Source: Acanthochlamys bracteata (lineage: Eukaryota; Streptophyta; Magnoliopsida; Pandanales; Velloziaceae). Taken from it: a stretch of 64,000 nt of DNA. The notes under the pieces were generated by a model. The model was given only the letters and a program-made list of their open reading frames with translations. It did not search any database and had not been told where the DNA came from. This document shows positions 29,510-44,300 of this stretch, piece by piece; within the stretch, counting starts at the first letter, position 1, and each line of letters begins with the position of its first letter. Both the position numbers and the translations under genes were made by a program. The stretch is taken from assembly GCA_019914995.1 (NCBI GenBank), contig CM034135.1:126501-190500 (forward strand), in the 5' to 3' direction.

Positions 29510-29814
29510 ATGAACCCTCCCTTTGTGTCTAGTGATAGATCAAAAGAAACAAGCAGAACCATCTCTCTCATAACTACAGGCCTGAGCAGTCAAACTCCGT
29601 TAGAGCTGCTAGTTATTCTAACGGAATCACAATCTGGAAGAGCAGTTCAGTTGCAAAGAGAACATACCATCCTAGTTGTTAGAATTTGGATTCACAGTTC
29701 CATTACAGAACATCGAATACTCAAAGTGTCAATAAATTTTGTGGCATATGTTCCAGAATTTGTTAGCCTTTCTAATTCGAACAATGTCATACTCAACTGT
29801 GTTTCATTCTACGT

Positions 29815-30050
29815 GGCTTTTCGAAGTATTTCTAAAAATTGTTTTTCTAAAACAGAAAATGCATTTATTCAATTTCGATAAATAAATTTTTTTTTTTATT
29901 TAAAAATAATAATTAATAACTAATAATAAATTTATTATATATAATTTTTTATATTTTTAATAAAATTTTATAAAAAATATTAAAAAATTTATGAAAAATA
30001 TTATTTAAAAAATTAAAAAATTATTTTTTGAAAATGTAATGCCAAATAGC
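29815..30050. mobile_element. hAT-like MITE, unit 1 copy
   Basis: The ends are near-inverted repeats (GGCTTTTCG... and ...AATGCCAAATAGC). The second copy shows the clearer pair GGCTTTTGGCATT / AATGCCAAATAGCC. Flanks TTCTACGT (29807-29814) and TCCTACGT (30051-30058) form an 8-bp target duplication with one mismatch, the size expected of hAT elements. The interior is almost pure A/T with no coding capacity. The same element is at the same place in unit 2, so it inserted before the duplication. Confidence 0.75.
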
Positions 30051-30338
30051 TCCTACGTCATGTAACCTATAAGAAGAGTTCCTTCTTTTTTTGGTGGATG
30101 AACGAATAGAACACTAACAGAACTGTAGATGAAGAATCCAATTCTGTATTACATTCTTCTTTCTAAATTTGCTAGAAATTTTTTCAAAATTATCCAAAAC
30201 TGGTTTATTATGATTGTTACGCAATTTTACGTAAACGCCCTTGAATTTGGTAAAATAGAAAACAAGTCGCACTTATTAAAATCACGTAGCAAATCAAAAT
30301 CACAACCTTGGCATTTCCTAATCCGGAGAGAGTCTCTC

Positions 30339-30366
30339 GCCGGAGCTCCGGCAATCGAAACCCTAA
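30339..30366 (+). promoter_or_regulatory. LCD leader: 14-bp palindrome and telo-box, unit 1
   Basis: GCCGGAGCTCCGGC (30339-30352) is a perfect palindrome. AAACCCTAA (30358-30366) follows it, about 50 bases before the LCD start codon. Both are kept exactly in unit 2 (37217-37230 and 37236-37244). The telo-box is a motif assignment; the palindrome could form a hairpin in the leader. Confidence 0.5.
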
Positions 30367-39976: not shown

Positions 39977-40811
39977 ATGAAGAAGCCCAGCAGCTACAGA
40001 AATTTCAAGTATGTGCATCTCTGAGAGTTACTTTTGTTAAATCTGTTATATCTGCTGTGACTTTCTTCTTCACCTCATGATATTTTTCTTTGAGGATTTC
40101 TTTTCTTTTGTTTCGCAAAATGTTCATACATCTTATTCTTTTATACCGTAGGAAATTGCTGAAGTCAGTAGATTTGCTTTTGAGAAAGTTCTTTTCTAAA
40201 TGGAACTTCTCCAGTGCTCCTTGTTTTGCATAAAATCATGTCTACATACTCTTTTCTACTGATTATTCTGAGGATTAGCATCCACGCCTTGGAATGCAAT
40301 GGATAGTGCGAACTTCAGAATAGTTTAGTTGTGTTTCTATCTATGAACTTAATGACACCCTTTTGATGGCTCGTCTATATTTTTTGTGATCCTTTTTAAC
40401 GGACTTTTCTGTATATCAATTTCTAGGAAGCAGTGGCAGCACAGGCCTCTGTAGATCGTGAGATTAAGGAAGTTCCCAGCATTATTAAAGCAGAGGTTTG
40501 TAAGTAATAGGGTTTATCTTGATTCCTTACTGTGCACAGAAATATTAGAAGTGGTCTCTCAAACAACAAAGTTTGTTATTGTAGGAACAAAAGCCTGCCC
40601 CAAAGAGGAACCAGAACACCCGCCCTTCCAACCTGTTTATTTCTATCAAACCACAGCTGAAGAAAGCAAAAATCGAAACAACAGATAGCGATAAACCTTC
40701 TGCCAAAGGGACCATCCAACGGACACGCATCTGATAAACCACTTGATGTAGCAAATACTGCACTAGGAGGTTTGGTATCATACAGTGATGAAAGTGACAG
40801 TGAGAATTAAT
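39977..40811 (+). pseudogene. NIP30 remnant with 5' half deleted, unit 2
   Basis: The remnant starts inside former exon 5 (GAAGAAGCCCAGCAGCTACA), fused directly to sequence that in unit 1 lies about 100 bases upstream of the start codon. The promoter, exons 1-4 and the start of exon 5 are gone. Exons 6 (about 40429-40497) and 7 (from about 40585) are recognisable. Exon 7 has a 2-base deletion (TTCTGCCAAAG instead of TTCTGAACCAAAG) that breaks the acidic tail. It is not a functional gene. Confidence 0.92.
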
Positions 40812-41370
40812 ACGGTAGCAGTGCAAGTGAACATGTAACTTAGCCTTAGTGTATGTATCTTATTATGGAGCTTCATGGTCTTAATGTGTCGAAAGTCTTA
40901 TTATTCACAAAGTGGCAACCCACTCTATGGTGGGAACCTGCTGGAGCCAGTTTAGGGGCAATTTCACGCGATTTAGAGATGTCAAAAGCATCAGAATGCA
41001 ATTCAAACTATTCATCATAACAGTACAGAAAGGTTCTTGATAAACATGTATATTATAACTCTACTTGATAGAAGAATAATTTCATTCTTCATCCAAAGAC
41101 TGACCATGCCTGCCTTAAAATACTTGCAGAGACAAAAAGAAAATGTCAAGCACAGACGGCCTCCACTGCGGTGATCAAGAAGTAACGTGCGATCCATTTC
41201 GATCATCTTGTGGAGTTGAATTTTAGAATGCTGATTCCTTCTTGGTACGGGTGGGTGGGTCTCTCTCTCACTATCCTACCACGACATGCGTCCCTCCAAA
41301 ATATGGGAACATACAAAAACAACTTGGAGTTACTTCTTCATGCTTTACTACCTAAAAAAAGCCACCCAAC
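40812..41370. other. Intergenic DNA between the NIP30 remnant and the CIPK 3' end
   Basis: The part to about 41186 is shared with unit 1 (35277-35695), apart from local indels. The rest is unique to unit 2 because unit 1 deleted it. It should include the CIPK 3' untranslated region. Confidence 0.5.
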
Positions 41371-44300
41371 TCATGCAGCAGCTGTTCGTAATTTTTGTTC
41401 AAACGCTGTTGGCTCCTGTATGGTATTGCAACCGTTTAAAAATGACTGGTCCTCACAATTGCCCAAGTCATCTGATAACTTTCTGCATAGCTACAAGCAC
41501 ATGGAAGAAGTTTACCTCTACTGAATGGTTGGCATAGAAGGTAAACTTTTGTGACGAGCTCTAGTAATTAGACTGCAGTCCATAATAACAGCCGACTGTA
41601 AAAGAGTTAGTTGAGAAAATACCTGTCTATATAAAGATGAATCTCCGTATGATTTTCTTACTTCAACAACATATAGAGATGGGCTAAGCTCAAATACCTG
41701 GTAGGCATGCACAAGGTGGGGCGTAAGGAATAGTGTTCATAAAGAAACTCAGGAAAGGAAGGAAACAAGGAGTTCCCATTTACCTCAGCAACAACTGAGA
41801 GAGACCTAGGGCTTCCAGAGTTTTCGCACTTCTTAACAACTTTAATCTGCAGAAATCGTAACAAATTTAGTTCAGCTTCTCCAGGACTTGTCAAAATTGT
41901 AGAAAGTCGCAGATTTTATGAACAGGCTTTCTTCTTTCACTAAAGAAGTTTTTAACAAAAGAGATTGCAGATGAGATTCACCTTTCCGTGCCCTTTCTGA
42001 ATCTGAAATCCCATTTTTGTGGCAATGCTTTCAATCTTCTCAAACAAAGCTTTAGGGCAATAATTTGATGTGAATCTTAATTTCCTTTCAGAAATATCCT
42101 GCAATTTTTTTAACAAGGTAATGATAAAAAAAAATACCAAACAGGAGCAAGTGACAACGCACGAGGAAGTAACACTTCCGAAAGAGGCTGACCTCTTCCT
42201 CAAAGAAACCAGATAGATCGAGACCTGATGACATTCCAATAAGCTCAAATGCATTGACGGCAGTGGTAGTATTTAGATCTTCGTCGCTACGTGATGGCTT
42301 TACCTGCAGATATTGCTGAAGAGATCAGCAATCGAAGAAAATGAAAGAATAGTTTGGAAATCGTCATCACCTCTTTTATCAAGAAAGTATCATCATCAAT
42401 ATTAATGCCATCATCATTTGGAATGGTGGGGCTATAGTCTTCCCTGAACCAATCATTTGCTTTAATTCCAGTAAAATTTATTCTTGTTCCAGGGTTTGGG
42501 TCAAGAATCCTCTTGAGCATATCTCGAGCACCATGCGACAAAGCATTAGGAATATGTACCTCCCCATTCATGATCTGAATGAAGTCAAGAAAGTTTAAAA
42601 ACAATATAGACACCTGAAGGAAGTCTGTTAAGAGAACATAGAATTATACTTCGGTGAGCTTCCCATCACAAACTAAATCCTCGAGTTCCATGGAGTATTG
42701 TAAAAACTTTATGTTCACGTACCTTCTGGTATAGAATTGCAAGATTATCATCATCAAATGGAAGACTTCCAGTAAGCATAACATATAAGATGACACCACA
42801 TGACCAGATATCTGATGCGGCTCCATTATATCCTTTATTTGCAAGAACCTACGCATGCAATCACAAGAAACAACCAGGTTAGAGAGTAGCATTCAGATCG
42901 ATAAACTCTAACACCATGATGTGAAGGATTAAAGTTCCACCTCAGGAGCAACGTAATTGGGACTGCCACAGGTAGTATGTAGCAAGCCATCTTTCTGAAA
43001 CAAAATACCAGAGCATAAGGTACGCAACAATCTTGCTTTATCCAGAACAAGAATTAAGTTACCAAAAAGACTAATCGCTTAGAAGTTCTTTTACCCCAAA
43101 GTTCTGTGGTAGTGCACTAAGGCCAAAGTCCGTTACTTTTATATTTCCTGTTACATCAATAAGAACATTCTCTGGCTGTACAGGAACAAAGAGGATGGAA
43201 TCACTACGTGAACAGACACAACTCTTAAATGATAACAATAGCATTTTTGCTTCTTAAAGAAAACCATCCATAGGAATCGTCAAAGAGGTAAAGTGAAGGT
43301 ACAAACTTATTACCTTGAGGTCTCTATGGAAAACGCCCTTATCATGACAATAGCTCACAGCGTCTATAAGCTGCTGAAACAACCGCCTTCCTTCATGCTC
43401 GGGAAGTCTCCCTCTGGATGCCTACAGCATGTGACATAATAATTGAAATACAAAGATTAGAAACTGAATCAGCACTAGAGCAGAAAAGGCAAGAACTATA
43501 GCATTTAAATGCAGAAGATATTGACTCACAACTTTGTCAAATAATTCACCGCCGTTAACATATTCTAGAACCATGTAAATCTTGGTCTTGCTTGCCAAAA
43601 CCTGATGAGTAAAACGAGTAAGAACTATCAAATAGTCATCCAAGGTATTGACAAGTAGAACATAATTCAATGGTACTTGCAGCAACACTTAAGCCGACTA
43701 CTTTATTAAAGAAATAATTGTTAAAGCGACAAACAACGGCAGATTACTTTTTATGCAAGTGCATAAAACATAAAATGGTAGATATTCGCATTATTGAGTT
43801 AATCCTCCTGGAGTGGGGGCTCAATCATGTCGAGGATGATTGCTAAAAGGAATGTGGTGCTAAACGTCTTCTTATTTTGAAACATAATAATGGAAAGTTA
43901 CCTAATATCAATGAGGATAAGGACAACTACTGGTTTATTTTTCAAAGATGGAAACGTTTTGAGAGAATACAATGACAGTAAAATAAAGAGTCAGAATCAC
44001 TAGAAATCTCGAGCAGGGATGGAGCTGCTGTCTTATAAAAGGTAACTAGAGCCATGTGAGTAATGCTTATTAGCGTGCAACACGTATCTTAAGTTGACCA
44101 GATTTTTATTGCCTGCAAGATTCTTGAATTCTTCCACAAGACCTTAAAATTACTTTGATCAAGATAGACTTGGTTGGTAAACCGTGTCATCCCATCTACC
44201 CACCGACTCACCACACCAAGCTCGTGAGTGCGATGATCCATCCCAGCCGTCCACAAACCGATTACTAATTCTAAATCTTTCTATTGAACTTTTCAAGAAG

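Follow-up and report, generated by a model that had tools for sequence, protein, structure and literature searches.

The DNA analysed here (the window, 64,000 nucleotides) covers positions 126501-190500 of contig C10 of Acanthochlamys bracteata, in whose genome we searched 195.5 Mb on 557 contigs, 20 of them chromosome-size (C1-C20, 6.4-14.9 Mb). It carries the genes SEC23, LCD, NIP30 and CIPK, the last three present, in whole or in part, in two neighbouring units, A and B. The features on which the argument turns are as follows.

29572-36464, + strand: unit A, with the SEC23 3' flank, LCD-A, NIP30-A and the CIPK-A fragment, delimited by BLASTN self-comparison and border alignment
30415-31743, + strand: LCD-A, a single open frame of 442 aa, PLP enzyme of the aminotransferase class V fold
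33002-33247, unstranded: AT-rich transposon-like insertion, only in A
33470-35276, + strand: NIP30-A, FAM192A/Fyv6 family, 7 exons, 207 aa, GT-AG introns, intact
35694-36464, - strand: CIPK-A fragment, from intron 7 through exon 10; without exons 1-7, which were never part of the copy, and with the last three exons lost by deletion
36465-36474, + strand: junction filler GCTAGTTATG, 10 bases between the end of CIPK and the start of the SEC23 flank
36475-42724, + strand: unit B, with a copy of the SEC23 3' flank, LCD-B, the NIP30-B remnant and the CIPK 3' part in its original context
37294-38622, + strand: LCD-B, 442 codons open, with 7 amino-acid and 11 silent differences from LCD-A, including W305L
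39977-40812, + strand: NIP30-B remnant, the end of exon 5 and exons 6-7, with a 2-bp frameshift in exon 7
41371-45208, - strand: CIPK-B, 13 exons (45208-41371), 448 aa, kinase and NAF domains, intact by gene model
33372-34442 of A, unstranded: deletion in B, 1071 bp, with 4-bp microhomology ATGA
41185-41938 of B, unstranded: deletion in A, 754 bp, covering exons 11-13, alignable on C15, with 2-bp microhomology AC

When the window is aligned to itself with BLASTN, A and B are joined by four direct and collinear blocks: 29572-33004 with 36475-39858 (93.6% identity), 33245-33375 with 39853-39980 (93.9%), 34440-35695 with 39974-41186 (91.4%) and 35694-36433 with 41939-42648 (92.0%), the weakest at E = 1.7e-48. 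On the CIPK side, border alignments read by eye carry the homology past the last block, to 36464 and 42724. The arrangement is that of a head-to-tail tandem, with two adjoining direct copies and a single novel internal joint. The SEC23 stop codon, read from the sequence, lies about 60 bp to the left of unit A, so the SEC23 coding region is outside the duplicated segment; a genome-wide search with SEC23 coding DNA gave a single match. The initial annotation had described a tandem duplication of two direct units, with LCD open in both, NIP30 whole only in A and CIPK whole only in B. Alignment of the units at 91-94% bears this out, our gene models agree on all three genes, and the coordinates it gave for the fragments (CIPK 35696-36464, NIP30 39977-40811) are correct within 1-2 bases. 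A real tandem duplication yielding one extra gene, LCD, is well supported. Absent from that annotation are the 754-bp deletion in CIPK-A, the insertion at 33002-33247 in A and the junction filler.

The insertion belongs to a repeated family: of 3722 candidates, 40 were scored, and among these are 39 other long matches at 87-93%. It is flanked by TAA and lacks the 3' terminus present in relatives such as L012. A transposon-like stretch at 9684-9895 belongs to the same family (82.8% over 204 bases), and its insertion site looks empty on C15, where both flanking matches meet at 102332. An older AT-rich repeat lies upstream of both LCD genes, at 29825-30046 and in the unit B copy, and has 38 other places among the 40 scored of 684 candidates.

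The joint between the units can be read base by base. CIPK identity ends at 36464 (42724 in B, the border of exon 7 and intron 7) and identity with the SEC23 flank begins at 36475. Nine of the filler bases, together with the two that precede them, form an 11-nt match to 29606-29616, 34 bp inside the unit, and to its copy at 36509-36519. Such nearness is rare by chance: counted over the window except for three stretches, at the breakpoints and at their copy, words with a match on either strand within 100 bp of either breakpoint occur at rates of 0.005 for 9-mers (652/124676), 0.0015 for 10-mers (186/124674) and 0.0004 for 11-mers (52/124672). A natural suspicion would be that repeats in the SEC23 flank and in CIPK had crossed over unequally, a common route to tandem repeats. 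Self-comparison and border alignment, however, found no long repeat common to both breakpoints, only a few bases and the filler, so that homologous repeats of the kind this route uses are missing from both ends and we consider it very improbable here. Filler copied from nearby sequence without long homology is the kind of scar that theta-type end joining or template switching would be expected to leave. Tandem duplications have been linked with such scars, according to excerpts of PMC8654963, PMC7368036 and PMC8355091, and an excerpt of PMC6097286 assigns large indels in wheat to break repair or unequal crossing over. Because the joint combines little or no homology with a 9-11-nt local filler, it points to theta-type end joining or replication template switching, two pathways that this scar does not separate, rather than to unequal crossing over; we infer the pathway from the scar alone.

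A second chromosome gives the locus a root. When C15 98001-148000 was compared with the window, 33 match rows were found at 69.6-90.2% identity, of which 32 follow the same order over 99-139 kb and the remaining one is a transposon match elsewhere. In place of the 8.3 kb of C10 that hold SEC23 and LCD, C15 has 687 bp; the block has one CIPK with all 13 exons alignable, a relic of NIP30 and no LCD. CIPK-B and the C15 CIPK differ at Ks 0.45, compared with K 0.042 for the clean noncoding sequence of A and B (107/2605 sites). Since the colinear block on C15 holds a single unit and the units differ so much less than the blocks, the tandem event came after the block duplication, at about one tenth of its age as judged from one gene and no calibrated rate. 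The older event was probably a whole-genome duplication, as we infer from this one block. The same comparison polarises the large deletions: 1071 bp were lost in B and 754 bp were lost in A.

NIP30 is the sole true loss of a duplicated gene at the locus. NIP30-A, with its Pfam FAM192A_Fyv6_N domain, is the one copy found intact when the genome was searched; that search returned eight matches, all on C10. In B, exons 1-4 and the first part of exon 5 went with the 1071-bp deletion, and the loss of 2 bp shifted the frame of exon 7. The relic on C15 (L021, C15 118001-128000) was detected solely by direct comparison, not by the genome search; it consists of exons 1-2, interrupted by an in-frame stop. 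Their presence shows that the NIP30 exons lying in the stretch missing from B are ancestral. The C15 relic and NIP30-B, where the gene survives from the end of exon 5 through exon 7, have thus been eroded from opposite ends. NIP30 has returned to one copy twice, independently, through these opposite-end losses. This would suit a gene for which, in contrast to LCD, duplication is poorly tolerated, as far as two events can suggest.

The case of CIPK is different in kind from the one first proposed, which was a complementary loss in which both neighbours had been duplicated whole and each unit then lost one. NIP30 fits this proposal, having been broken in B after the duplication, and CIPK-A did later lose 754 bp. 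However, CIPK homology in A ends at the joint (36464), so exons 1-7 were beyond the copied segment, and it was not the case that each unit once had both flanking genes entire. Self-comparison of the window by BLASTN showed nothing left of CIPK exons 1-7 in unit A; in the genome, the CIPK 5' stretch matches C10 and C15, with weaker matches to paralogues on C8, C11 and C6. With the breakpoint at the border of exon 7 and intron 7, the A copy was truncated from the outset, and there was never a choice between two whole CIPK copies. The NIP30 half of the proposal stands and the CIPK half falls, and as a whole it has very little probability left. Intron 7 of CIPK-A, as read from the alignments, has a net loss of about 45 bp. 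The best solved-structure match of CIPK-B is CIPK23 (4czt).

Substitutions between the units can reveal how the copies have fared since the split. Over all aligned sites, 206/5384 differ. The clean noncoding count leaves aside the AT-rich repeat (37/292), the LCD coding sequence (18/1329), the CIPK part (29/710), the NIP30 exons and 121 sites upstream of NIP30 (4 changes). Divergence is uneven, ranging from 3.2 to 6.1% over the noncoding classes and reaching 12.7% over the old AT-rich repeat (stretch 29781-30120, 37/292 sites). Promoter or regulatory divergence upstream of LCD was considered and rejected, because the high divergence coincides with this old repeat in both units. In the case of LCD, 11 silent and 7 replacement differences give Ks 0.036, Ka 0.007 and Ka/Ks 0.19. 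Seven or fewer replacements among 18 would have P 0.0007 if both copies were free, and a marginal P of 0.016-0.024 if one were free and the other held at omega 0.1-0.2; both copies look constrained by purifying selection, the test against a single free copy being marginal. Conversion of the whole of LCD was rejected as well, since its Ks is close to the noncoding divergence. A run of 388 aligned identical sites across the 5' end of LCD (30293-30680, with one 1-base indel inside; simulated P 0.026) may be a local gene-conversion tract.

CIPK exons 8-10 have 4 silent and 14 replacement differences between A and B, with Ka/Ks of about 0.9 summed over the three exons, and the replacement to silent ratio of 14:4 stands against 7:11 in LCD (Fisher P 0.04). 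By their substitutions, the CIPK exons common to both units drift. Polarised by C15, these exons carry 7 changes in A and 9 in B, with 2 sites that differ in all three; outside the exons the corresponding counts are 23, 19 and 15, partly from poorly aligned stretches. On these small counts, the whole CIPK-B does not look better conserved than the dead fragment since the split, which counts against our main reading. CIPK-B may itself be relaxed, given the CIPK on C15, again on small counts.

Care must be taken with any tandem pair that the assembly has not produced it. Two overlapping haplotype contigs, one ending in CIPK and the other starting in the SEC23 flank, could have been placed in tandem; such a join would give the gene order seen at the joint, and no further strong LCD copies turned up in the genome search. 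The initial annotation had relied on the chimeric junction of SEC23 flank and CIPK to argue against an artefact, an argument that is weak alone because haplotype contigs joined end to end give the same order. Stronger evidence comes from elsewhere. There is no N at the joint or in the window, and the joint has the 9-11-nt locally matching filler. The units have diverged by about 4% in noncoding sequence and have decayed separately, each by its own large, gene-breaking deletions, and their common CIPK exons drift. The flanks (SEC23 and CIPK 5') have no second near-identical copy, and C15 has the single unit. A false join at the locus is therefore unlikely.

What the extra LCD gene does can be approached through its relatives, though all of them are distant. 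The name LCD, for probable L-cysteine desulfhydrase, is one that we take over from the initial annotation for both copies. Pfam and PDB matches give both the class V PLP fold, with the NLHKW active-site lysine context and a GT motif, which presumably play the roles known for them in such enzymes, and the Pfam scores are close (69.6 and 68.1 bits). The copies are probable L-cysteine desulfhydrases, as predicted from these features. The matches found are Egt2 and plasmid enzymes at no more than 33.7% among the 20 best listed of 153 records; the search of prokaryote genomes found no relatives of LCD, and the plant genome itself has the two strong matches here and two weak ones at about 25 bits. 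To place the changes between the copies, we used four distant plasmid-borne relatives picked from those 20, one of which (L057) has a stop inside the matched stretch that was set to X. At residue 305, LCD-B has L and LCD-A has W; the nearest of the four bacterial relatives has W, the other three H, Y and H, and Egt2 has F, with L absent from all five (L056 has R in the pairwise alignment, not H). For the other six changed positions, the relatives either have gaps or do not agree with one another, so those changes are left unpolarised. W305L adjoins the GTRD motif, which contacts the cofactor in class V enzymes. It is conceivable, if rather doubtful, that LCD-B is diverging in function, with W305L altering activity while the rest is constrained, and that the duplication is giving this plant a second sort of H2S-related enzyme.

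Taken together, we give a probability of roughly 0.9 to a duplication of about 6.9 kb, head to tail, through error-prone repair, following an older block duplication and followed by separate fates of the copied genes. After the older block duplication, probably of the whole genome, C10 would have kept SEC23, LCD, NIP30 and CIPK, while C15 would have kept CIPK, lost SEC23 and LCD and left NIP30 as a relic. A 6.9-kb segment of C10, starting about 60 bp beyond the SEC23 stop and ending at the CIPK exon 7/intron 7 border, would then have been duplicated head to tail. Its new joint would stem either from error-prone end joining of the polymerase-theta type, with nearby sequence copied as template, or from replication template switching. 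The duplication would have produced whole copies of LCD and NIP30 and only the 3' part of CIPK. Subsequently, both LCD copies would have stayed open under purifying selection, NIP30-B would have been broken by a microhomology deletion and a frameshift, and the dead CIPK-A fragment would have lost more exons and drifted. The structure and order of the locus, its homeolog, the deletions and the substitution counts are observed directly, whereas the repair pathway, the whole-genome nature of the older event and the function of each LCD copy are interpretation. The locus is a clear but ordinary small-scale gene duplication, a new example of a kind already known. Its value lies in being a well-preserved and rooted case, in which the scar of its origin and what became of each copied gene can be read at one locus, with the older homeologous block for reference, and in illustrating that what looks like a "loss" in a tandem unit can result from where the breakpoint fell. 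As far as titles and the starts of abstracts indicate, none of the papers found on LCD with tandem duplication is evidently about this locus, which is no proof that the locus is undescribed.

Several known systems can be set beside it. Like other break-repair tandem duplications, this one runs head to tail and has a joint without long homology, where a short filler matches sequence close by, and its later deletions have 2-4 bp of microhomology; we see no difference here beyond the common pattern. As in fractionation after whole-genome duplication, C15 lost SEC23 and LCD and kept a relic of NIP30, but here a later tandem event restored two LCD copies, with NIP30 back to one. The copies share the class V PLP fold of plant LCD (Arabidopsis At3g62130, tomato SlLCD1/SlLCD2). 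Tomato has two LCD genes, one nuclear and one chloroplast, according to an excerpt of PMC7736880, and the basic N-terminal TKRLR found here recalls the nuclear signal of tomato LCD described there. Whereas that excerpt gives the tomato pair as one nuclear and one chloroplast protein, the copies in A. bracteata are tandem and nearly identical, with the same N terminus.
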